Source of the DNA: a virus
Virus record (IMG/VR): IMGVR_UViG_3300028569_000132
Location: 1 to 28,520 of that record
Strand: one strand, 5' to 3'
DNA: 28,520 nucleotides
Shown in pieces: positions 3 to 13,622 of the stretch; position 1 is the first letter of the stretch; every line of letters starts with the position of its first letter. The translations under genes and the position numbers were made by a program. Below the pieces are notes generated by a model that had not been told where the DNA came from, did no database searches, and saw only the letters and a list, made by a program, of their open reading frames with translations.

Positions 3-227
3 TATGGTGGTATGCCGATGGTCGAGAAGAACGGCCAGAAGGTTCCGGCTTTTGCTGCTGACGGCAAGGGCAAGATGGCCAAGGGCGGCAAGGCTAAGTG
101 TATGGCCAAGGGTGGTCTGGCGGCTGGTCACAAGGCAGCTGATGGTATTGCTAAAAAGGGCAAGACTAAGGCCATGATGCCCAAGATGGCCGGATCAACC
201 GGCATGAAGCGCGGCGGCAAGTGCTAA
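3..227 (+). CDS. KGG-motif small basic protein (5' partial)
   Basis: Short lysine-, glycine- and methionine-rich protein with repeated MAKGG elements and a C-terminal KRGGKC. The frame is open to the left edge (codons Tyr-Gly-Gly precede the first Met at base 12), so the gene probably begins outside the window; an internal start at 12 is the alternative. No enzymatic domain, signal peptide or membrane segment is visible. The same KGG element occurs in several other proteins here (238-597, 13600-13746, 19527-19775, 19777-20037, 20048-20374 and the C terminus of the 8754-11252 product). Function is unknown; the basic composition would suit nucleic-acid or capsid association, which is inference. 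The next gene begins 10 bases downstream after an AAGGAGA ribosome binding site. Confidence 0.65.
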   Translation, partial: YGGMPMVEKNGQKVPAFAADGKGKMAKGGKAKCMAKGGLAAGHKAADGIAKKGKTKAMMPKMAGSTGMKRGGKC

Positions 228-897: not shown

Positions 898-1086
898 ATG
901 AACCCGTATGAACTGCGTTACGAGGTGTTGAAGACCGCGAGAGAGATGCTTGAACACCAGTTCCATGCCAACATGGAGCTTTGGCGTTTGGGTGAGAAGG
1001 CCCTTGAGTCGCTGCCCAAGCCGCCGACCCTTGAAGAGGTGTTGACATTCGCTGACAAGATGAATACTTTTGTCAGCAGCAAGTAA
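898..1086 (+). CDS. small conserved helical phage protein
   Basis: 62 residues, ATG after an ACACAGGAGACACAC leader (good GGAG). The sequence is helical: MNPYELRYEVLKTAREMLEH, then FHANMELWRLGEKALESLP, a PKPPTLEEV hinge and a second helix. The N-terminal pattern (NPYELR-x-VLKTAREMLE) recalls small conserved proteins of T4-like and environmental phages whose function is not known. It is the last gene before the hammerhead ribozyme, whose 5' strand starts only 7 bases after the TAA. Cleavage would therefore place this gene on the upstream mRNA product with a very short 3' end. Confidence 0.75.
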   Translation: MNPYELRYEVLKTAREMLEHQFHANMELWRLGEKALESLPKPPTLEEVLTFADKMNTFVSSK

Positions 1087-1092
1087 GAACTA

Positions 1093-1148
1093 GTCCTTCT
1101 GACGAGTCTTCAGTAGACGAAACGGCTACGAACGTAGCCGTAAAGGAC
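1093..1148 (+). ncRNA. type I hammerhead ribozyme (self-cleaving RNA)
   Basis: Every element of the hammerhead core is present in order. Stem I is GTCCTT (1093-1098) with AAGGAC (1143-1148). The first core is CTGACGA (1099-1105). Stem II is GTCT (1106-1109) with AGAC (1115-1118) around loop TCAGT. The second core is GAAA (1119-1122). Stem III is CGGCTAC (1123-1129) with GTAGCCG (1134-1140) around loop GAAC. The last core A (1122) pairs with T1141, giving the cleavage triplet GTA, so predicted scission is after A1142. All three stems pair perfectly and stem I is open, which defines type I. Hammerhead ribozymes are known in bacterial and phage genomes. In this location it would cut a + strand transcript between the 898 and 1257 genes. 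The in vivo role is inference. Confidence 0.92.
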
Positions 1149-1165
1149 ACGCCCCGTACCTTCCG

Positions 1166-1282
1166 GTGTATAAGTGGGGCAACAGGGATGACGCACCTCG
1201 GCCCACGGTTCTGACCAAGGCTCAAGTCGCCGCCCGTTATCGAGAAAGGAAGAAACGTGAACAGGTACAAAACCGTATTTGA
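1166..1282 (+). CDS. possible 38-residue ORF after the ribozyme (doubtful)
   Basis: A frame open from 1103 reads through the ribozyme 3' side and encodes, from a GTG at 1166, a charged peptide (YKWGNRDDAPRPTVLTKAQ, then a basic helix VAARYRERKKREQ). It ends at 1282, overlapping the 1257 gene by 26 bases. No convincing ribosome binding site precedes the GTG. The composition looks protein-like, so it may be a real short gene, a leader peptide or a remnant of a longer gene. The alternative is that 1149-1256 is simply an untranslated leader. Confidence 0.28.
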   Translation: MYKWGNRDDAPRPTVLTKAQVAARYRERKKREQVQNRI

Positions 1283-1514
1283 CGCCACTGTGGCTGGCAT
1301 TCCGTGCCAGATTGGTGTCCTGTCATATGAGCCGTTGATGCAGGGCCGCTACACAGCGGCACCTGAGAACTGCTACCCGGATGAGGGCGGCTTTGGTGAA
1401 TACGACGTACTAGACGGCAACGGACGACGCGCCTTGTGGCTTGAGAAGAAAATCAAGGACCGCGACGAAGAGCGTATCCAAGAGAGCATTTGTGCTCACA
1501 TGGAGGGTTGGTGA
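1257..1514 (+). CDS. unknown small phage protein
   Basis: 85 residues from a GTG start, chosen because GAAAGGAAG lies just upstream. Sequence features: MNRYKTVFDATVAGIPCQIGVLSYEP, an aromatic/acidic middle and a charged helix WLEKKIKDRDEERIQESI. The N-terminal part looks like a small beta-sheet domain; two to three Cys residues show no zinc pattern. No family is recognised. It overlaps the next gene by one base (TGATG), so the two are probably translationally coupled. It is the first gene on the downstream product of ribozyme cleavage. Confidence 0.7.
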   Translation: MNRYKTVFDATVAGIPCQIGVLSYEPLMQGRYTAAPENCYPDEGGFGEYDVLDGNGRRALWLEKKIKDRDEERIQESICAHMEGW

Positions 1515-2098: not shown

Positions 2099-2135
2099 AG
2101 AGCACTAGCAAACACGGCCCGTTGACCACGGACCA

Positions 2136-2159
2136 AGGGCCCTTCGGGGCTCTTTTTTT
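2136..2159 (+). terminator. intrinsic terminator with UUCG loop
   Basis: AGGGCCC (2136-2142) pairs with GGGCTCT (2147-2153, one G-T wobble) around a TTCG tetraloop closed by C-G, followed by a run of T to 2159. This is a standard rho-independent terminator closing the 1-2098 gene run. Confidence 0.88.
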
Positions 2160-2172
2160 GCGTCCGGTCTTG

Positions 2173-4575: not shown

Positions 4576-4938
4576 ATGGACACTAACAGCAGAGTCGGGC
4601 CGTATGTGGGAGTGAGCCGAGATTTTAACCGTGGTCGTTATCGCATCCTGATTTATGGAGCCTTTAACGCATACGGCCTCATCGGTACCGAGTGCAACGG
4701 CGTTGCCGTGTTGGACGATGAAGAGCGGTTAATTGTGGCGGATGAACTTGGGCGTAGTCCAGAGGGCGGATGGTTCGGACCGACAGAAGAGCAGCATCAC
4801 CTTGCCGAATGGTTGCGACTGTGCCCGCCTGATAAGTTTGCGGAGTACATCAACAGCAGCGGCAGGAATCGCCACGTAGTGGACCCGGCTACCGTTCCGA
4901 CCGAGCCGCCGGACCCCTTTGTTTTGGTATCCGACTAA
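4576..4938 (+). CDS. unknown accessory protein
   Basis: 120 residues from the ATG at 4576; a TTG at 4570 in frame is the alternative and lies closer to GAGGG (4561-4565). The first 60 residues look like a compact beta-rich domain (YVGVSRDFNRGRYRILIYG, GVAVLDDEERLIVADELG). The middle is amphipathic helix (EEQHHLAEWLRLCPPDKFAEYI) and the C terminus is Pro-rich and acidic. I do not recognise the family. It belongs to the accessory set with individual promoter/hairpin leaders. A CCGACTA/TAGTCGG hairpin (4931-4947) covers its stop codon. Confidence 0.65.
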   Translation: MDTNSRVGPYVGVSRDFNRGRYRILIYGAFNAYGLIGTECNGVAVLDDEERLIVADELGRSPEGGWFGPTEEQHHLAEWLRLCPPDKFAEYINSSGRNRHVVDPATVPTEPPDPFVLVSD

Positions 4939-4997
4939 AGTAGTCGGGTATATCAACTATAAGGTTTTACTTATCAATGGCTTAGGGTAGGTCTTAT

Positions 4998-5011
4998 GTC
5001 TTATATAAGAC
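4998..5011. repeat. palindrome GTCTTATATAAGAC, copy 2
   Basis: Shares 14 palindromic bp with 2173-2188, and both are preceded by GTCTT-x-TG-type sequence. It lies about 60 bp upstream of promoter cassette 3, in a 207-bp intergenic gap (4939-5145) that holds no gene. Operator-like; function unproven. Confidence 0.55.
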
Positions 5012-5056
5012 TTGCCCGCCATGTATGTAAACCTAGCCCTTATTAGCGGCCCTTGA

Positions 5057-5140
5057 TTGATAGGAAAAAACGATTGGCCGTGGGCCGTGGACCGTGTAAC
5101 ATGGGCACTGTGGCATCCCGCCACACTTAGAACGGAGAAT
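5057..5140 (+). promoter_or_regulatory. promoter-like repeat plus 5'-hairpin leader, cassette 3
   Basis: Repeat element TTGATAGGAAAAAACGATTG (5057-5076). Candidate -35 TTGGCC (5074-5079), 17-bp spacer, -10 TAACAT (5097-5102). Hairpin TGTGGC/GCCACA (5109-5114/5120-5125, loop ATCCC). Ribosome binding site TTAGAACGGAGAA before the ATG at 5146. The spacer is made of GGCCGTGG-type repeats related to the dispersed GGACCACGG element. Confidence 0.6.
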
Positions 5141-5145
5141 GTGAC

Positions 5146-5499
5146 ATGAGCGCGAATTTTGAGCAGGCCGCACCGGCCCTTGATTTGTCCCAGTTCTACG
5201 GGACCGAGAACTATTACCGCCACATTAGTGGCAAGGTGTACACGGATGGCGTCCAGTACTTCGCCAGTCGGGCTGGGGCGTACTGGTTCGTGGACCTTAT
5301 GCTGTTGGAACTGGCAACGGACGAGGGGCCGTTTGTCGCGGTCACGTTGACCGTGAAGGGTGACGCTGCCGACATTTGCGTCACGGACGGTAACGACGGG
5401 GTGTTGGCCCGCAAGTCGATTGAATGGACCGACTGTCCCGAGGGTGAGTACACCTTTTATATCTGCGACGGCGTAATGATGTTGTCGTCGGAGTACTGA
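5146..5499 (+). CDS. DUF6876-family protein
   Basis: 117 residues, ATG with CGGAGAA upstream. The family pattern is recognisable: LSQFYGTENYYRH near residues 14-26, VYTDGVQYFASRAGAYWFVDLMLLE (residues 31-55), a middle beta-rich part (VAVTLTVKGDAADICVTDGN), IEWTDCPEGEYTFYI and a C-terminal LSSEY. DUF6876 proteins are small soluble proteins of phages and plasmids; to my knowledge their function is not known. It has its own promoter/hairpin cassette and is followed after 3 bases by the 5503 gene. Confidence 0.78.
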   Translation: MSANFEQAAPALDLSQFYGTENYYRHISGKVYTDGVQYFASRAGAYWFVDLMLLELATDEGPFVAVTLTVKGDAADICVTDGNDGVLARKSIEWTDCPEGEYTFYICDGVMMLSSEY

Positions 5500-5502
5500 C
5501 CC

Positions 5503-5694
5503 GTGGCCGTCGCAACGTATCACCGCGACGGCTCCGCCGTCGCGGTCCAGATAGGACCAAGGGATTGGTTCTGGCGGGCCTACGTCGAGGGGCGCGAAGT
5601 CGCGCAGGGACACGCCACGAGCAGGAACGCGGCCACGCAGCGCGCCCGCGCTGCGGCTATCAACAAGAGCGGCCTGATAGGAAAAAACTATTAG
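5503..5694 (+). CDS. small basic protein, unknown function
   Basis: 63 residues from a GTG 3 bases after the previous stop; GGAG at 5489-5492 could serve as ribosome binding site at long spacing. Beta-rich N-terminal half (VATYHRDGSAVAVQIGPRDW, then FWRAYVEGREVAQG), then an Arg/Ala-rich helix (SRNAATQRARAAAINKSG). This resembles small single-strand or substrate-binding folds but matches no family I can name. Its last five residues (IGKNY) and stop are encoded by the first copy of the 31-bp tandem promoter element, so the duplication overlaps its 3' end. Confidence 0.55.
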   Translation: MAVATYHRDGSAVAVQIGPRDWFWRAYVEGREVAQGHATSRNAATQRARAAAINKSGLIGKNY

Positions 5695-5736
5695 ACATGG
5701 CCGGCTGATAGGAAAAAACGATTAGACATGGCCGGC
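5674..5736 (+). repeat. tandem 31-bp duplication of the promoter-like element
   Basis: Two adjacent copies begin at 5674 and 5705, each CTGATAGGAAAAAAC-T/G-ATTAG and ending CATGGCCGGC. They differ only at one base (T5689 versus G5720). Copy 1 contains the stop codon of the upstream gene. Single copies of the same core lie at 4483 and 5057. Confidence 0.85.
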
Positions 5737-5790
5737 AGGACCGGGTATAGTGGTAATGTGGCAAGCCCGCCACACTTAGAACGGAGAACG
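5722..5790 (+). promoter_or_regulatory. promoter plus 5'-hairpin leader, cassette 4
   Basis: TTAGAC (5722-5727, inside repeat copy 2), 18-bp spacer, TATAGT (5746-5751). Hairpin TGTGGC/GCCACA (5757-5762/5769-5774, loop AAGCCC), then TTAGAACGGAGAA before the ATG at 5795. The predicted start of transcription coincides with the first base of the hairpin. Confidence 0.65.
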
Positions 5791-5794
5791 AAAC

Positions 5795-6247
5795 ATGAAA
5801 GTAGCAGACCTGATTCTTTTGCTTGCGCCGCTGTCAGACCGGACCATTAGCCTGCGCCATAGCGGCCTGCTCATGGCCCTTGACCGCGAATGCTTGCAAG
5901 TGCTGGACGAAGAGAACGCGGTATTCGAGATGCCGGCCCCCGCTCGCGTCACCCTCGATGACGCTCTTTGCACCTTGGCCGACTGGGTGCGCCACGCGGA
6001 ACTCCGCATCGCGGCGCTTGAGGAGAACGGCCCCGCCGGCATCGACTACAGCGAACTGGCCCTTAACCTCGACATGTCCGACCTCGCAGGCGAGGTTGAC
6101 CGGTCCGACCTCGCCGGATACGTCGACATGTCCGACCTCGCCCAATACGTCGACATGTCCGACCTCGCCGGACACCTTAACATTGATGACGCCGTAGAGG
6201 AGGCGGTCAACGACACGCTGCGCGACGCTCGGTTTAGGTTAGCGTGA
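5795..6247 (+). CDS. acidic DMSDLA-repeat protein
   Basis: 150 residues, ATG after CGGAGAACGAAAC. The first 85 residues form a predicted alpha/beta domain (MKVADLILLLAPLSD, LLMALDRECLQVLDEEN). A helix follows (ALCTLADWVRHAELRIAALEE). Then come four copies of a 9-residue acidic repeat of the form (Y/L)VDMSDLAG (about residues 90-128) and a C-terminal helix. Similar (I/V)D-x-x-DLA repeats occur in other phage proteins and are thought to form extended solenoid or coiled surfaces; their role is unknown. The TGA stop is the first element of the 62-bp repeat at 6244. The gene has its own promoter cassette. Confidence 0.72.
   Translation: MKVADLILLLAPLSDRTISLRHSGLLMALDRECLQVLDEENAVFEMPAPARVTLDDALCTLADWVRHAELRIAALEENGPAGIDYSELALNLDMSDLAGEVDRSDLAGYVDMSDLAQYVDMSDLAGHLNIDDAVEEAVNDTLRDARFRLA
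6068..6178 (+). repeat. 27-bp tandem repeats in the 5795 gene
   Basis: GACATGTCCGACCTCGC or close variants start at 6071, 6098, 6125 and 6152, a strict 27-bp period encoding nine residues per unit. Copy 2 reads GACCGG in place of GACATG. Confidence 0.9.
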
Positions 6248-6320
6248 TTCGCTTGCACCTGCCCGCAAGGGCAGGTTATAATGCAGGGGCAGCATCCCGC
6301 TGCCCCTAGAATGGAGAACG
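6244..6320 (+). promoter_or_regulatory. promoter/double-hairpin leader, cassette 5 (62-bp repeat copy 1)
   Basis: Begins with the upstream stop codon. TTGCAC (6253-6258), 18-bp spacer, perfect TATAAT (6277-6282). The spacer itself is a hairpin, ACCTGCCC/GGGCAGGT with a GCAA loop (6257-6276). Downstream of the -10 is GGGGCAGC/GCTGCCCC (6286-6293/6299-6306, loop ATCCC), then TAGAATGGAGAA. Bases 6244-6305 are identical to 6634-6695. The first hairpin could alternatively end upstream transcription. Confidence 0.72.
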
Positions 6321-6322
6321 AA

Positions 6323-6637
6323 ATGCGTACTATTAAAATCGGTTATCACCGCTTTGCTGTCCCGTCTAACTGGACTTCTAAGAACGTGGGCGAGTTTGCG
6401 GCCCAGATGTCGGAACTGACTCAGGTTAGCGACTTGTCCGAAAAGGTTGGCGAATCGTGGACTTCAGTCCCTTACCTGAATGAATTGGACGGCGTGACCA
6501 TCGGCCATGTCGGGTTCGTGCTGCCGAACTACGAGTCCGCCCGCCAGCATCTTGACGGCCTGAAGGATGCCGCCGAAGACCAGCGGCAGGAGCGGGACCG
6601 GCGCGGCGTGTCCAACATCGGCAGCGTAGCGACGTGA
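6323..6637 (+). CDS. unknown accessory protein
   Basis: 104 residues from the ATG at 6323, placed by TAGAATGGAGAA; an earlier in-frame ATG at 6281 overlaps the -10 element and is unlikely. The N terminus, MRTIKIGYHRFAVPSNWTSK, looks beta-rich. The rest is NVGEFAAQMSELTQVSDLSEK, VTIGHVGFVLPNYES and a charged helix (LDGLKDAAEDQRQERDRRG). The layout (leading strand, VPSNW, then helix) suggests a small soluble regulator, but no family is recognised. The stop lies at the start of the second copy of the 62-bp leader repeat. Confidence 0.65.
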   Translation: MRTIKIGYHRFAVPSNWTSKNVGEFAAQMSELTQVSDLSEKVGESWTSVPYLNELDGVTIGHVGFVLPNYESARQHLDGLKDAAEDQRQERDRRGVSNIGSVAT

Positions 6638-6712
6638 TTCGCTTGCACCTGCCCGCAAGGGCAGGTTATAATGCAGGGGCAGCATCCCGCTGCCCACTAG
6701 AACGGAGAACGA
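6634..6712 (+). promoter_or_regulatory. promoter/double-hairpin leader, cassette 6 (62-bp repeat copy 2)
   Basis: Exact 62-bp copy (6634-6695) of 6244-6305: TTGCAC (6643-6648), TATAAT (6667-6672), the GCAA-looped spacer hairpin and the ATCCC-looped 5' hairpin (GGGCAGC/GCTGCCC). It diverges just after the hairpin (CACTAGAACGGAGAA versus CCTAGAATGGAGAA), showing that the leader rather than the gene has been duplicated. Confidence 0.72.
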
Positions 6713-6715
6713 ATT

Positions 6716-6925
6716 ATGACAATGATTATCGGCAACCAGATTCCTTTATTCCGCCTGATGGTCCTGCGGAGCGGACTAACACTTGAAATCAAGGGGCTGC
6801 GGGTCAGCAACGGCCGCTCGTGCGCCGCCATCATCCGCGAGATGATTGGCAGCAAGACCAGCGACAAAACCGCGCTGCTGCTCGAGTTCGAGCAATGGCT
6901 GGAACGTCACGCGGAAATCGCCTAA
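6716..6925 (+). CDS. unknown small protein
   Basis: 69 residues, ATG after CGGAGAACGAATT (a second ATG follows at 6722). The sequence reads MIIGNQIPLFRLMVLRSGL, LTLEIKGLRVSNGRSCAAI, then a helix (REMIGSKTSDKTALLLEFEQWLERH). The N-terminal half looks like a small beta element and the C-terminal half is helical, similar in size to small phage inhibitors or DNA-binding proteins, but I recognise no family. It is the last gene before the 315-bp hairpin region that precedes terL. Confidence 0.6.
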   Translation: MTMIIGNQIPLFRLMVLRSGLTLEIKGLRVSNGRSCAAIIREMIGSKTSDKTALLLEFEQWLERHAEIA

Positions 6926-7239
6926 CGCACCGGGCACGGTTCTTGCCTTAGCAAGGACCGTGCCATCCGAGCAGGCATGGTTCTTGCCTTAGCAAGAACC
7001 ATGCCAAGGTACCCTAGTACCGAAAGGCGCTAGGGAAAGCGCCTTTATGCAATATTCTTCTTCCCACAAGGCGGTGGCGGGGGTGGGCGGGCCCGCCACT
7101 CTCGATTTTGGACAAACAGCTACCACCAAACGCATTTTGCCCCCATAGTTAGTAGGCGCTTCTTGCCAAACCCACCCCCTTGTTTTATTTTGCAAATCTG
7201 GCTCAAAATTTATGCAAAATTTTTTCAAACGGAAAGTTC
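6926..7239. other. non-coding hairpin-array region between accessory genes and terL
   Basis: No gene seen. Hairpin 1 is 6934-6963 (13-bp stem, loop CTTA, one G-T wobble). Hairpin 2 is 6975-7004 (13-bp perfect stem, loop CTTA). Hairpin 3 is GGTAC/GTACC (7008-7021, loop CCTA). Hairpin 4 is AAAGGCGC/GCGCCTTT (7023-7030/7039-7046) with a short T-rich tail, a weak terminator candidate. Hairpin 5 is GTGGCGGG/CCCGCCAC (7074-7081/7092-7099) around a G-rich loop. The last 60 bases before terL are AT-rich. Confidence 0.7.
7023..7050 (+). terminator. candidate terminator after the accessory cluster
   Basis: AAAGGCGC (7023-7030) pairs with GCGCCTTT (7039-7046) around TAGGGAAA and is followed by a short T/A stretch (TTTATGC). 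The stem is good but the T-tract is weak, so termination may be partial. Confidence 0.4.
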
Positions 7240-8715
7240 ATGACAGACGATAAGCGGCGTCAGGAAATCGAGACAGAGATAGCCAAATACGAGCTTCGTC
7301 TGGCTCTTTTGGCGTCACAGGACAAAGCAAAGACCGACTTCCTGTCTTTCTGCCAATACGTCTGGCCCGAGATGCTTGTTGGGGAGCATCATCGCAAGAT
7401 TGCCGAGGCCCTTGATAGGGTAGTCGAGGGCAAGTGCAAGCGTCTGATGATTGCAATGCCGCCGCGTCATGGCAAAAGCCAGATGGGCAGCTATCTGTTC
7501 CCCGCGTACATCATGGGCCGTAAGCCGAATTCCAAGGTCATTGTTGGGTCACACACGGCTGAACTCGCGCAACGCTTTGGCCGGATGATTCGAAACCTTG
7601 TCTCTGACCAGAAGTACAAGGAAATCTTCCCCGGGATGAGCCTCTCTGCCGACAGTAAAGCCGCTGGCCGGTGGGACACGAATGAAGGCGGTGAAGCGTT
7701 CTTCATTGGTAAGGGCGGTGCAATGACGGGCCGTGGGGGCAATATTGTCGTTCTGGATGACATCTTGGACGAACAGGATGCAACGTCCGAGACTGCTATG
7801 GAGAACACTTATGAGTGGTACACCTCTGGACCACGGCAACGCTTGCAACCGGGCGGGGCCATTATCATCATCAACACCCGTTGGAGTCCTGACGACCTGT
7901 CTGGTCGGCTCTTACGACAGCAATCACGGCTCAAGGCTGACCAGTGGGAGGTTTTGGAGTTTCCTGCAATCCTGCCTAGCGGCAATCCGTTGTGGCCGGA
8001 ATACTGGAACATTGACGAACTCGAACAAGTAAGGGCGTCTCTTGGGCCGAAGAAGTGGTCCGCGCAGTGGCAACAGCAGCCCACGAATGATGAGGGTGCG
8101 ATTCTCAAGCGGGAGTGGTGGAACATCTGGAAGCACGACGAGCCGCCGCCGTGTGATTATGTGATTCAGAGTTTGGATACTGCGTATTCCAAAAAGGAGA
8201 CGGCTGACTATTCGGTTATTACGACGTGGGGTGTGTTCCGTCCCGGCCCAGATGCCCCTGTCTCAATTATCCTGCTCGGAGTCGAGCGTGGTCGGTGGGA
8301 CTTTCCTGAATTGAAGCGGGTAGCGTACGACGCGTATAAGGCGTGGAATCCGGACAACATCCTGATTGAAGCAAAGGCTTCGGGTATGCCGCTCATGCAG
8401 GAGTTGAGGCGGCTGGGTATCCCTGTCACCTCCTTCAGCCCCGGTGGGCGGCGCACGGGCACTGACAAGGTAGCGCGGGCCAATTCCATTGCGCCTATGT
8501 TTGAGGCCGGTTTGGTATGGGCCCCGGACACTTATTGGGCGGAGGACCTCATCGAAGAGTGCGCCGCGTTCCCTGTTGGGCAGCACGATGACCAAGTCGA
8601 TAGTACGACGGCTGCATTGGCGCGTTTTCGTCAGGGTAATTTTGTCAGTTTGCCTTCTGATTATCCGGACGAGGAAACTCCCGAAGAGGACGCTAGCCAA
8701 TATGAATACTACTGA
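7240..8715 (+). CDS. terL: terminase large subunit (packaging ATPase and nuclease)
   Basis: 491 residues from the ATG at 7240, preceded by CGGAAAG (an upstream in-frame ATG at 7180 has no ribosome binding site). ATPase: Walker A MPPRHGKS (73-80), Walker B IVVLDDI (169-175), coupling region IINTRWSPDDLSGR (210-223). RNase H-like nuclease: SLDTAY with D313, ILIEAKASG with E378, and HDDQVDSTTAAL (449-460) with the last acidic residues. All expected catalytic residues are present. It drives DNA into the procapsid through the portal and cuts concatemers. The C terminus is acidic (PDEETPEEDASQYEYY). It is unlinked from terS by about 4 kb of accessory genes. Confidence 0.95.
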   Translation: MTDDKRRQEIETEIAKYELRLALLASQDKAKTDFLSFCQYVWPEMLVGEHHRKIAEALDRVVEGKCKRLMIAMPPRHGKSQMGSYLFPAYIMGRKPNSKVIVGSHTAELAQRFGRMIRNLVSDQKYKEIFPGMSLSADSKAAGRWDTNEGGEAFFIGKGGAMTGRGGNIVVLDDILDEQDATSETAMENTYEWYTSGPRQRLQPGGAIIIINTRWSPDDLSGRLLRQQSRLKADQWEVLEFPAILPSGNPLWPEYWNIDELEQVRASLGPKKWSAQWQQQPTNDEGAILKREWWNIWKHDEPPPCDYVIQSLDTAYSKKETADYSVITTWGVFRPGPDAPVSIILLGVERGRWDFPELKRVAYDAYKAWNPDNILIEAKASGMPLMQELRRLGIPVTSFSPGGRRTGTDKVARANSIAPMFEAGLVWAPDTYWAEDLIEECAAFPVGQHDDQVDSTTAALARFRQGNFVSLPSDYPDEETPEEDASQYEYY

Positions 8716-8753
8716 CTTACAATACGGTTGACATTTTCCGAGGACCGTGGTCC

Positions 8754-11252
8754 ATGGCCCAAGAACCCGTAACTAATCTCATCCGTACTGAGGCGCAGAA
8801 GCAGGGTGTCAACCCAGATTTGGCGATTCAGATTGCGAGTGTTGAGTCGGGCCTGAACCCGTCCGCTCAAAACCCCAAGTCAAGTGCTGCTGGCCTGTTC
8901 CAGTTGATTGACAGGACGCGCAAAGAGCTTGGTGGTGACCCCAAGAAGAAGCTTGACCCGTTGGAAAACGTGCGTTTGGGCGTGAAGCTCATCAAGCAGA
9001 ATGAGGGTCAGTTGATGAAGAACCTTGGACGACGGCCCACGGACCATGAATTGTACATGGCGCACCTGTTTGGGCCTACTGGTGCGGTCAGTTTGATTCA
9101 GGCGGACCCGACTACACCGGTGCAGAAGGCGGTTTTGGGGTTTTCTAGTCCTAAAACGGCGGATGCCATCGTCAAAAACAACCGTTTGACGGGTACGGTG
9201 GGCGACGTTATTGGCAAGTTCCAACAAAAATTTGGTGGAAAGCCTCAAACCCAACAAAAAACTGCGCCGGTAAAGCAAAAACCGGCTGCGCCTGAGGGCC
9301 CGATTCCGTTTACGACGGGCTTTGACTTTGCTGACCTAGGGCCGAGCTATCAGGCGGCTTTTGCGTTGGCGAGTCTGGGCATGTTGGAGGCTCCTACGGA
9401 AGGTGAGGAGCAGGAGAAAAAGAAGGTTGAGGTAGAGAAAGAGCCGCAGCAGCCGAGCAAGTCGTCGCAGATGCTGGCCGGCATGAAGTTGCCGGAGCCT
9501 TTGGCTTTTGCAGGAGGCGGAAGTGCGGAAAAAGCGCCCCCGGTGGTTGTAACCCCGGAAGAAAAGCCCAAAACTGAGGCCAAGAGTATGCTGGACAAGC
9601 TTTTGGAGACACGGAAAGAGGTCATCAGCACACTTCCGGGGTTACAACCACCGGAAGAAAAGCCCAAAACTGAGGCCAAGAGTATGCTGGACAAGTTTTT
9701 GGAGACACGGAAAGAGGTCATCAGCACACTTCCGGGCATGGGAGCGGACATGGCCGCGTCCACGATTAACCCTGTCTACGGTGCGGCTGCGTCAGCAGCG
9801 GACTTTGAGATTGCACGGCGCGAAGGCGACCTTCTGGGCATGGGCCTGTCTGGCATTGGCCTTATTCCCGGTCTTGGGCCGGCGCTCAAGGGCATCGGCA
9901 TGAAGGCCGCTCCGGCTATTCTTGGTGCGATTCGCCCCAAGGGCGGCGTCTTCATGACTTCTGGTAAGTACGGGGAAGTGGTGGGACCGAACAAGCGGGC
10001 AGACACCTTCTCCAAGTTTGACAACGACATGAACAACATTTTGGACAGGGTGGAAATTAAAGCCAAAGCGGAGATTAGCGGCATTTCTCAGGAATCGGCG
10101 GACGCTATCAGGGAACTGTTCGACAAGAAGGCCCGCAAGTACTTCACGACGCAGTTTGCGTCCGTTGATGACCCGCTTTATGACGCTCTCAAGGAAGGCC
10201 GCATCAAGCCGGTTGGGGAACCAGACAAGAAGCTGTTCCGTAGATACATGGTCACCAAGGCACAAGAAGGTGACCCGGAAGCACTGGAAGATTTGGCTGT
10301 TGCCTACGACAAGGCACTTCATCGGTCTGTTTTTGTTCCAAAGGGCCAAATGTATTCAACGGAAGCGTTTAACCTGAGTGGACGCAGAAAAAAAGAAGCA
10401 CGGGAGTTGGCAGAGTCGCAACGTCTTGCAGCCGAAGAAAAGTTGGCCCCGGAAGAACTGCGTAGCATGGAAGTTTTATTCGTTGACCATAAAGAGCTCG
10501 ATAGTCTTCTGCATGGAGAAGGGGCCAACGTACCTCCGCACATTCAACGCGCCCTTTCGGAGGGCGAGATGGTCTACGACATCAGCAATTTTGATGTGCC
10601 TAAGTTTATGAAACCGTCCGAAGAAATGATTGATGAACTGGCCAAGATTGACCCGGCGGTTCTCAAGAAAATGAACTATCCAGAGGCGGTAGTCGCCATT
10701 AACAAGCCGATGCGCTTTGCAGTAGACTGGGTGGATGTTGTCAATACCGCGGACAAAAAGGGCGCAAAAGCAGTGCCCAAGGAAAGCAGAGCCATGTTCA
10801 CCCAGACTGTGATACCTCTGGGCGACGGACAAAAGTGGGTCAGGCTCACCGACAGTAAGGCCGCTGCTCTAGAGGGCAAGATGATGAAGCACTCTGTCTG
10901 GCTCTACGACAAGAAAGGGAATTACGGACCGCTCAAAGGTGGGAAGGACGATTTTGACTCTGGGAGGGTTGAGGTGTTCTCGCTGCGTGGCCCCGACGAT
11001 ATACCTGAACTTACCATTGAAGTGGATAAGGCAACATCACTTACGGGCGACGGTATCGTTACTCAGGTTAAGGGACGCTTTAACGAGAGTCTTGAAGGTC
11101 TCCTGCCTTACGCAGACCAGATTGTTTCCTTCTTCGAGAAGACCGGTTATGTTCCGGGTGGACTAGACATTCCAGACGAAATCCTGCAACGCATCAGAAA
11201 ACCAGTTGGTAAAGCCAAAGGCGGTATGGTAGATAAGCCGCTGTACTCCTAA
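8754..11252 (+). CDS. large virion protein with N-terminal lytic transglycosylase domain
   Basis: 832 residues, ATG 9 bases after GAGGA. Residues 5-140 form an SLT-type transglycosylase: IQIASVESGLNPSAQNP carries the catalytic Glu (E31), followed by SSAAGLFQLI and VRLGVKLIKQNEG. Residues 155-290 are a Lys/Gln/Pro-rich linker, then two tandem copies of a 32-residue unit (about 268-328). Residues 330-395 are Gly/Ala-rich and moderately hydrophobic (GLIPGLGPALKGIGMKAAPAIL). The C-terminal 430 residues are soluble and unrecognised, ending in a KAKGGMVDKPLYS tail. Known phage proteins of this build are ejected with the DNA and locally cut peptidoglycan. Position between terL and portal is unusual. 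Confidence 0.82.
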   Translation: MAQEPVTNLIRTEAQKQGVNPDLAIQIASVESGLNPSAQNPKSSAAGLFQLIDRTRKELGGDPKKKLDPLENVRLGVKLIKQNEGQLMKNLGRRPTDHELYMAHLFGPTGAVSLIQADPTTPVQKAVLGFSSPKTADAIVKNNRLTGTVGDVIGKFQQKFGGKPQTQQKTAPVKQKPAAPEGPIPFTTGFDFADLGPSYQAAFALASLGMLEAPTEGEEQEKKKVEVEKEPQQPSKSSQMLAGMKLPEPLAFAGGGSAEKAPPVVVTPEEKPKTEAKSMLDKLLETRKEVISTLPGLQPPEEKPKTEAKSMLDKFLETRKEVISTLPGMGADMAASTINPVYGAAASAADFEIARREGDLLGMGLSGIGLIPGLGPALKGIGMKAAPAILGAIRPKGGVFMTSGKYGEVVGPNKRADTFSKFDNDMNNILDRVEIKAKAEISGISQESADAIRELFDKKARKYFTTQFASVDDPLYDALKEGRIKPVGEPDKKLFRRYMVTKAQEGDPEALEDLAVAYDKALHRSVFVPKGQMYSTEAFNLSGRRKKEARELAESQRLAAEEKLAPEELRSMEVLFVDHKELDSLLHGEGANVPPHIQRALSEGEMVYDISNFDVPKFMKPSEEMIDELAKIDPAVLKKMNYPEAVVAINKPMRFAVDWVDVVNTADKKGAKAVPKESRAMFTQTVIPLGDGQKWVRLTDSKAAALEGKMMKHSVWLYDKKGNYGPLKGGKDDFDSGRVEVFSLRGPDDIPELTIEVDKATSLTGDGIVTQVKGRFNESLEGLLPYADQIVSFFEKTGYVPGGLDIPDEILQRIRKPVGKAKGGMVDKPLYS
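9555..9736 (+). repeat. 96-bp-period tandem repeat inside the transglycosylase gene
   Basis: Copies at 9555-9640 and 9651-9736 differ at a single base (C/T in AAGCTTTTGG versus AAGTTTTTGG). In addition, the 19 bases at 9540-9558 recur in inverted orientation at 9636-9654, bracketing copy 1. The duplication is in frame and looks recent. Confidence 0.9.
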
Positions 11253-11261
11253 GGAACAGAC

Positions 11262-13622
11262 ATGCCCATTGACAAGGCCCTCAACTCTCTGCCTGAGGTT
11301 GACATTGAAATCGAAGCTCCTCCTGCTTTGGAAGACGCTCCTGACGTTGAGATTGAACTCGAATCGGACGGTAGCGCAACGGTATCTATTGAAGAGAAGG
11401 AAACGGACTTCTACGCCAACCTAGCGGAAGTCATGGACCCGGCCGACCTACGGAACGTCAGCAATGACTTGATGGCCCTTTTTGAAGCAGATGCCTCCAG
11501 TCGAGACGACTGGGAAAAGCAGTACAGCAAGGGCATGGAGATGCTGGGCTTTACGTTTGAAGAGCGCACACGCCCGTTCAAGGGCGCGTGCGGCGTAAAG
11601 CATCCAATGCTGACCGAGGCCATCGTGCAGTTTCAAGCACAGGCCATGAAGGAACTGATGCCGGCAGATGGACCGGTACGTACGCAAATCCTTGGCAAGG
11701 AGACGGTAGACAAGCTTCAACGTGCTGACCGCGTCAAGGAGTTCATGAACTACCAGATTACTACCGGGATGCCTGAGTACACCCCGGAGTTCGACCAGAT
11801 GCTGTTCTATGTCGGCTACGGCGGTTCGGCATTTAAGAAGGTTTACTACGATGCGGCCGGCGATAAGGCGGCTAGTCCACTGCTGCTACCTGACGATGTG
11901 TACATCCCGTACAACGGTTCGTCGGTCATGAGCAAATGCGAACGCATCACGCAGCGTGTCCACATGTCCATCAACGCATACCGTAAGGCGGTGGCCAGTG
12001 GCATGTATATGGACATGGCTCAAGAAGGGGAGCAAAACACCTTTACTTCTACTGATATCCAAGACGCTATCGACAAGATTAGCGGCTTGTCGCCAAGTGG
12101 CGAGGAAGAGGAAGTTAGCTTGCTGGAGTTTCATGTTGACTATGACCTCCCCGGCTTTGAGGACGAGGACAGCATTCGTCTCCCGTACATCATCACGGTA
12201 GATGAGACCAGCGGCCAAGTTCTGGCGATTCGCCGTAACTGGAACGAGGACGATAAGAAGTGCTGCCGCAAGGAGTACTTCGTACACTACATGCTAATCC
12301 AAGGTCCGGGAGCCTATGGCCTTGGTTTCTTGCACTTGATTGGTGGTCTGACCAAGGTATCGACGGCTGCGCTACAGCAGCTTATCGACGCTGGTACGCT
12401 GGCCAACCTGCCGGGAGGTTTCAAGGCCAAGGGCGCACGAATCATGAACGATGACGTGCCTATCCAGCCGGGTGAGTTCCGAGACATGGACGCTGGTGGC
12501 CAAGAGCTTTCTGCCTCGCTTCTGCCTCTGCCATACAAGGAACCCAGCCAAACCCTGTTCACTCTTCTTGGCTTCACGGTTCAGGCGGGCCAACGTTTGG
12601 CAGCGATTGCTGACCTACAGGTGGGTGACGGCAACCAACAGGCCGCTGTAGGCACCACTCTGGCTATGCTGGAGCGGGGGTCCACGGTCATGTCTGGAAT
12701 CCACAAGCGCCTGCATTACGCGCAGAAGCTGGAGTTCCAACTTCTGGCTAGGGTGTTTGGAGAGTATCTCCCCGACGATTACCCGTATGACGTGGTGGGC
12801 GGTAGCCGCCGCATCAAGCGAAAGGACTTTGACGGGTCTATTGGTGTCATCCCAGTTGCAGACCCCAATATTTTCTCAATGGCGCAACGCATCACTTTGG
12901 CTCAGACGGAACTGCAACTGGCCCAGAGTGCCCCCCAGATGCATGACATGTACGAGGCCTATCGCCGCATGTATGAAGCAATCGGGGTGAAGGACATCGA
13001 CTCACTGCTCATGCCTCAGCATCAGGATAGGCCCAAGGACCCGATGGAGGAAAACAGCCTGTCTTTGGACGGCATGCGCCTCAAAGCATTCGCTGGGCAG
13101 CAGCATGACGCCCACATCATGAATCACCTGATGTTCACGATGTCCCCAATGATTCAGGGGCTGCCCCAGACCGCTATCAATCTCATGAAGCACGTTCTTG
13201 AGCATATTCGTCTCAAGGCGGAGGAGACCGTTGAGGCTGAATTATTTATGCAATACGGCACTGACCCGGACAAGATGGTATCCATGCTGCAACGTGAAGC
13301 GATGGTAGCTCTGAAGGAAGCCCAGTTCTACCAAGAGCTACGTCAGTTGCAAAACCAACTATCCGGTGGTGAAGGCCAAGAAGACCCGTTAATCAAGCTC
13401 AAGGAGCAAGAACTGCAACTTGTGTCTCAGCGTGACCAGACCAAGGCTCAGGAGTCGCAGGCCAGATTGCAGTTGGATGCCCAAAAGGCTCAGAAAGAAA
13501 TCGAAATGCAGCAGGCCCGCATTAGTTCTCAGGAAAAAATTGCGGACCAGCGTACCACTGTTGCTATGCAACGCGTAAATGAGATGAGGAACAAAGCAAA
13601 TGCCACTCAAAACCGGACGTAG
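11262..13622 (+). CDS. portal protein (long, P22-like type)
   Basis: 786 residues, ATG after AAGGAACAGAC. A variable acidic N terminus (1-60) precedes the portal core: DDWEKQYSKGMEMLGF, RTRPFKGACGVKHPMLTEAIVQFQAQAMKELMP-type helix and DQMLFYVGYGGSAFKKVYYD. A wing/stem region follows, and the C-terminal 130 residues are Gln-rich coiled coil (KLKEQELQLVSQRDQTKAQE and following), as in long podovirus portals with a barrel. It forms the dodecameric DNA entry/exit channel at one vertex. Family assignment rests on pattern and position (after terL, before scaffold and capsid). The 13600 gene overlaps its last 23 bases. Confidence 0.85.
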   Translation: MPIDKALNSLPEVDIEIEAPPALEDAPDVEIELESDGSATVSIEEKETDFYANLAEVMDPADLRNVSNDLMALFEADASSRDDWEKQYSKGMEMLGFTFEERTRPFKGACGVKHPMLTEAIVQFQAQAMKELMPADGPVRTQILGKETVDKLQRADRVKEFMNYQITTGMPEYTPEFDQMLFYVGYGGSAFKKVYYDAAGDKAASPLLLPDDVYIPYNGSSVMSKCERITQRVHMSINAYRKAVASGMYMDMAQEGEQNTFTSTDIQDAIDKISGLSPSGEEEEVSLLEFHVDYDLPGFEDEDSIRLPYIITVDETSGQVLAIRRNWNEDDKKCCRKEYFVHYMLIQGPGAYGLGFLHLIGGLTKVSTAALQQLIDAGTLANLPGGFKAKGARIMNDDVPIQPGEFRDMDAGGQELSASLLPLPYKEPSQTLFTLLGFTVQAGQRLAAIADLQVGDGNQQAAVGTTLAMLERGSTVMSGIHKRLHYAQKLEFQLLARVFGEYLPDDYPYDVVGGSRRIKRKDFDGSIGVIPVADPNIFSMAQRITLAQTELQLAQSAPQMHDMYEAYRRMYEAIGVKDIDSLLMPQHQDRPKDPMEENSLSLDGMRLKAFAGQQHDAHIMNHLMFTMSPMIQGLPQTAINLMKHVLEHIRLKAEETVEAELFMQYGTDPDKMVSMLQREAMVALKEAQFYQELRQLQNQLSGGEGQEDPLIKLKEQELQLVSQRDQTKAQESQARLQLDAQKAQKEIEMQQARISSQEKIADQRTTVAMQRVNEMRNKANATQNRT

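Follow-up and report, generated by a model that had tools for sequence, protein, structure and literature searches.

Type I hammerhead ribozymes from phages and prophages have been proposed to process mRNA, and prophage examples were found to cleave both in vitro and in E. coli, although the 2011 survey in which this was reported left the role of phage hammerheads open (Perreault et al. 2011, PMC3088659). The locus described here, which lies in a 28,520 nt stretch of viral DNA (IMG/VR record IMGVR_UViG_3300028569_000132, referred to below as the window), resembles these hammerheads (PMC3088659, RF00163) in its core, three stems and open stem I, as well as in its site between phage genes and in the proposed cutting of long phage transcripts. 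It differs from them in belonging to a subgroup in which a specific conserved RNA normally begins at the cut. The HDV-like theta ribozymes (Kienbeck et al. 2024, PMC10879173) are similarly self-cleaving and tied to the processing of phage tRNA arrays, but they are of another class and are proposed to trim tRNA 3' trailers, whereas the product here would be the 5' end of an RNA which is not a tRNA, made by a hammerhead.

Three further systems share features with this RNA. The VIPR guide RNA arrays (PMC13142463) are also phage non-coding RNAs with hammerheads interspersed, but their vrRNAs carry 9–16 tandem YNNGG repeats, and identity with these was rejected as such repeats are absent from our 27 sequences when inspected by eye. 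The phage T4 species 1 and 2 RNAs (rnaC and rnaD; 119 and 139 nt) are likewise stable and located beside a tRNA cluster, but are without a hammerhead, and a relationship was rejected as visual comparison showed no clear similarity other than short motifs like GAGTAGCG. Finally, the COG2908 RNA (RF02939) has the block ACCUUUCGGUGUA between complementary bases in common with it, but was rejected as an identity at 16 bits against a cut-off of 58.7 and was absent from the matches in the eight loci that have a complete copy.

We consider it probable that the window carries an intact hammerhead of a subfamily which most likely makes the exact 5' end of a folded downstream RNA, and that this RNA is truncated here. 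We hold with almost the same confidence that the subfamily represents a new class of phage non-coding RNA which makes its own 5' end, with a hammerhead directly before a pseudoknotted RNA of ~110–180 nt of which the window has a truncated copy, and, as part of this second reading, that the RNA would serve either as a free stable RNA released from tRNA arrays or as a self-made protective 5' domain on mRNAs and tRNA precursors. The ribozyme of the window and its surroundings comprise the following features:

898–1086 (+), upstream gene of 62 aa, function unassigned
1093–1148 (+), complete type I hammerhead ribozyme, recognised by direct reading, Rfam match, fold and scanner
1093–1098 (+), 5' strand of stem I, GUCCUU, making 6 Watson-Crick pairs with AAGGAC at 1143–1148 (from the sequence)
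1099–1105 (+), catalytic core CUGACGA (from the sequence)
1106–1118 (+), stem II hairpin of 4 bp (1106–1109/1115–1118, GUCU/AGAC) with loop UCAGU
1119–1122 (+), core GAA (1119–1121) plus A15.1
1122–1141 (+), stem III hairpin of 8 bp (1122–1129/1134–1141, A1122-U1141 included)
1142–1143 (+), predicted cleavage site after A1142, triplet G-U-A at 1140–1142, from its position in the core
1257–1514 (+), downstream gene of 85 aa with a GTG start, YuA Gp49-like (PF20788, phrog_6858)
2135–2160 (+), terminator-like hairpin plus T run, the likely end of the operon

The hammerhead at 1093–1148 (+) is genuine. All of the type I invariants are present (CUGACGA for the consensus CUGANGA, GAAA, and GUA as the NUH triplet), stem I is open, and stems II and III are closed by loops (6, 4 and 8 bp for the three stems). 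It lies between two co-directional small phage genes. This agrees with the initial annotation, which had reported a complete hammerhead between two small phage genes and had judged the chance of such a full match to be very small: an independent scanner found exactly one full hammerhead when both strands of the window were searched, and none in 300 first-order Markov randomisations of the window. The distance of 108 bases from the ribozyme to the next probable start had also been given correctly (the GTG is at 1257, 114 nt from the predicted cut), while the spacing from the upstream stop codon at 1084–1086, given as 7 bases, is in fact 6. Hammerhead chemistry leaves a 2',3'-cyclic phosphate on the upstream product and a 5'-OH on the downstream product; A1142 would bear the former behind the stem III hairpin, which would form the 3' end of the upstream product, and A1143 would bear the latter.

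The Rfam model RF00163 aligns to the window copy over model positions 1–45 of 45 with 26.2 bits (E-value 3.3e-4 in a search of 501 bases and 4.5e-6 in the genome search). The covariance check suggested by the initial annotation thus succeeded in aligning the type I model end to end but not in reaching the gathering score of 34 bits, so that the hammerhead goes uncalled at the curated Rfam threshold. It should be noted that this is a database threshold and not a structural feature, and that most of the sister ribozymes having a perfect core score below it too. The hammerhead fold is the minimum-energy fold of 1085–1155 (z -2.99), and the equilibrium probability of stem I ranges from ~0.06 to ~0.99 depending on the longer flanks included, over which the folding predictions disagree. 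As to a peripheral contact between stem I and loop II, which type I hammerheads use for activity at low Mg2+ and which may form here, the A on either side of stem I and the loop UCAGU are consistent, at the sequence level, with the pattern in 110 viral copies.

These 110 unique type I hammerheads, taken from other viral contigs (L017–L108), served as our comparison set. Their start lies no more than 6 nt from a stop codon upstream in 71% of cases compared to 7.5% for random same-strand positions (a share somewhat inflated by the UAA inside the common stem I GGUUAA), and cut 12–40 nt before the next ATG in 81% compared to 18%. Such tight placement makes mRNA processing a good general reading for phage hammerheads, and supports a sharper version of the proposal by Perreault et al. 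The window, with 114 nt to its GTG, and the subgroup with the downstream RNA are exceptions to the 12–40 nt spacing.

The subgroup was recognised in a first scan of the viral contig collection which required an exact stem I and core, and which gave 25 stretches having these in common; the constancy of stem I is therefore partly by design, and is softened by two scans made without the 5' strand or the ribozyme. A second scan in which the 5' strand of the hammerhead was not required added members, and altogether an RNA starting at the hammerhead cleavage site was found in 27 viral contigs besides the window, all of them from metagenomes. A scan for which the query was just the 3' half of the RNA gave six contigs, each of them previously in the set and each with a hammerhead, so that the linkage between hammerhead and RNA is also seen when the query omits the ribozyme, albeit in a small number.

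The RNA has the layout 5'-AAGGACAC...ACCUNNNGGU...AACCNN, in which the cut is followed by AAGGACA, the P1 stem, the loop ACCUNNNGGU, a variable domain and the 3' end AACCNN; counted from the cut to shortly beyond the 3' strand, the RNA is 110–184 nt long. Stem I has its 3' strand within the conserved RNA itself, and stems II and III vary among the relatives yet remain paired. Stem I is CCCU/AGGG in L152, a compensated variant, and the L204 contig begins so near the RNA that any hammerhead would fall outside it. We also note that in L154, L159 and L166 the hammerhead before the RNA has GUAA in place of the core GAAA and a stem III insert of ~70–90 nt which may itself be structured, and that L154 and L159 share a further stretch (GGACAGGGTAACAACTCAG...) upstream of the hammerhead which may be a second structured RNA.

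Comparative analysis indicates that the sequence downstream of the cut is a conserved structured RNA. For 14 distinct members with hand-aligned core columns (metagenomic contigs of shared ancestry), P1 together with the AGG/CCU and NNGGU/ACCNN pairings gave 96.4% standard pairs, and 34 two-sided changes were observed compared to a shuffled mean of 10.9, with covariation as high as this in 0 of 500 shuffles and only 21–51% paired in slid registers. Two-sided changes were seen at all five P1 pairs and, in the long-range NNGGU/ACCNN helix, at both of its variable inner pairs, while the AGG/CCU pairing is nearly invariant and is backed by conservation only. RNAalifold, given eight class A sequences, chose the AGG/CCU and CCGGU/ACCGG helices unaided, and a covariance model built from the same eight sequences matched class B and C members (E 4e-8 to 6e-3), all of which were outside of model building and were matched from the cleavage site onward. 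The fold energy of single RNA copies was mostly not below that of shuffles, which can occur with a pseudoknotted RNA; covariation was used in its place.

This hammerhead-headed phage RNA is apparently hitherto undescribed. No published description was found in the open-access literature, and when eight loci carrying the full RNA were scanned with Rfam, no match was obtained over the RNA itself and outside of it only tRNAs, a tmRNA, hammerheads and sub-threshold matches. BLAST of the window and of the hammerhead plus RNA of four relatives against 50,697 phage records gave no match, nor did a search of bacterial and archaeal species genomes with the class A core pattern. A looser core pattern gave matches lacking a hammerhead, which we judged to be due to chance.

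The neighbours of the RNA differ from one relative to the next. A tRNA starts 1–19 nt past the 3' strand of the RNA in seven loci, a start codon is found 16–24 nt past the RNA in at least six, and L116, L118 and L128 have sigma-70-like boxes (TTGACA, then TACGAT; by eye) a few bases past the 3' strand. Several copies sit within large phage tRNA arrays with no downstream ORF close by. As the neighbours are tRNAs, start codons or promoter-like boxes, the RNA looks like an independent module and not the leader of one gene. Among individual contigs, L113 and L116 have a terminator-like hairpin plus T run just ahead of the hammerhead, L152 has 30 tRNA genes at 4851–12238 (ARAGORN; one labelled tRNA-Pyl(cta)) surrounding its hammerhead-headed RNA copy, and L114 has a permuted tmRNA match at 22–214 (-) (RF04321, 136 bits) on a contig that also has a tRNA array.

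In the intact relatives, cleavage after the NUH triplet would leave a 5'-OH on AAGGACAC, the start of the RNA, and the hammerhead would in this way ensure that all molecules of the downstream RNA share one 5' end. The P1 loop would pair, through NNGGU/ACCNN, with the 3' end of the RNA to which it belongs and probably also, through AGG/CCU, with the 5' end of that RNA, and since it pairs with both ends, the new 5' end may be tucked into a pseudoknot. The placement before tRNAs or translation starts suggests that the RNA is either stable and free or a 5' domain which protects what follows, and in the tRNA arrays the other (3') end of the RNA would be made by RNase P. The subgroup offers a concrete and testable hammerhead product in the form of a conserved RNA starting exactly at the cut, and if this is a stable RNA of tRNA arrays or a protective 5' domain, it would amount to phage RNA processing and shielding without host enzymes.

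The main alternative is plain mRNA processing, by which the halves of the transcript would decay at different rates and the conserved stretch downstream would be incidental. The initial annotation had read the window ribozyme in this way, as splitting a polycistronic mRNA, and as a general reading this is strengthened by the placement of the 110 viral hammerheads at stop codons and 12–40 nt before start codons, and by the proposal and cleavage results of Perreault et al. (PMC3088659). We nonetheless regard it as unlikely: the next start is 114 nt away in the window and also far off in the subgroup, unlike in ordinary copies; several relatives sit in tRNA arrays and have no ORF close downstream, and the sequence after the cut is a conserved, covarying RNA. 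In the window, where this RNA is truncated and fused to a gene remnant, mRNA processing may be all that remains.

The reading that we prefer, of a hammerhead that makes the 5' end of a folded RNA truncated in the window, draws on two further features of the window:

1143–1170 (+), the 28 nt that survive from the start of the hammerhead-headed RNA (AAGGACACGCCCCGTACCTTCCGGTGTA), 26 of 28 identical to L131, with the model match starting from 1143
1166–1216 (+), 3'-terminal remnant of a helix-turn-helix gene, 41 of 51 identical to L329 405–455

Both the RNA start AAGGACAC at the cleavage site and the P1 loop ACCUNNNGGU are present in 1143–1170, and identity with the relatives ends at 1170. GCCCCG/UGGGGC is a candidate P1 stem that could close the loop, but with extra loop bases and a 3' strand which comes from the gene remnant. 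No 3' strand AACCNN (~5–7 bp with NNGGU) is found before the start codon at 1257, which makes the window a truncated copy and not a full member. The intact gene in L329 lies near 218–522 and is helix-turn-helix-like (a resemblance below Pfam cut-offs), and weaker similarity to the encoded tail continues in the window to ~1250. On this sequence comparison, the 108-base gap is a gene remnant rather than an ordinary leader, and the open frame 3' of the cleavage site (GHAPYLPVYKW...) was rejected as a gene in its own right as it is explained by the remnant. The RNA part and the remnant part share GTGTA at the join, and the simplest reading is that a deletion between the RNA and the helix-turn-helix gene made it.

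The closest phage by terminase in the collection is L329 (the same contig as L109), with a TerL 92% identical. It carries both the hammerhead and the RNA in complete form at 7.1 kb upstream of terL, and the window ribozyme is 6.1 kb upstream. None of the other TerL relatives fetched has the cassette, though many stop short of that region, and by flanking-protein synteny no ribozyme was found with the relatives of the 62 aa and 85 aa genes that were read. The initial annotation had held that homologous phages keeping the flanking genes but losing core bases uncompensated would speak against it, and this was found in part, as in one relative the upstream gene is retained (84% identical) and a plain hairpin stands in place of the ribozyme. 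Since that relative keeps the gene without it, the ribozyme is an accessory cassette and not a fixed part of the gene pair, and the cassette is sporadic in the relatives compared.

In the window the predicted cut between the 62 aa and 85 aa genes would remain while the finished RNA is lost. As only the first 28 nt of the RNA survive, the ribozyme probably still cuts mRNA with its usual product broken, and the window, in which the ribozyme has been kept and most of the RNA lost, can be seen as a natural experiment.

It is also conceivable that the window leader works anew, with the P1 loop CGGU pairing with ACCG at ~1272 and controlling translation of the 85 aa gene after cleavage. The covariance model does align to 1143–1279 over its full length, and its spacing of 129 nt is one that the family also shows, but the match is weak (30.4 bits) and owes most of this score to the first 28 nt, the candidate 3' pairing is of 4 bp and falls inside the 85 aa gene, and the middle is gene remnant. 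As about one in seven stretches of such length would contain AACCG by chance, and the predicted accessibility of the start site is nearly unchanged by cleavage, we find this reading improbable.

The least probable reading is that the hammerhead is a decaying relic, inactive and without a role in the window phage, for although the RNA that it heads is truncated, relatives carry the cassette sporadically and the GUA triplet is generally less used (12 of the 110 viral hammerheads), every core base and each of the three stems is preserved, and stems II and III are wholly unlike those of the closest relative yet paired, which suggests compensated change and not decay.

Two smaller observations concern short sequences. 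Short dispersed repeats of the type GGACCACGGACCATGGACCACGG occur in the window at ~1980–1992, 2121–2137 and 2281–2312, and also in the closest relative, L329, at ~49–57, 1610–1628 and 2546–2566. Among the ordinary hammerheads, the stem I GGUUAA is common to 34 (in loci L026, L029, L030, L039, L041, L048, L056, L064, L091, L094 and L105), where the cut would leave a leader of UUAACCAA plus ~12 nt before the ATG; these leaders have a median length of 22 nt, occur several per contig, and are mostly without an obvious Shine-Dalgarno sequence.
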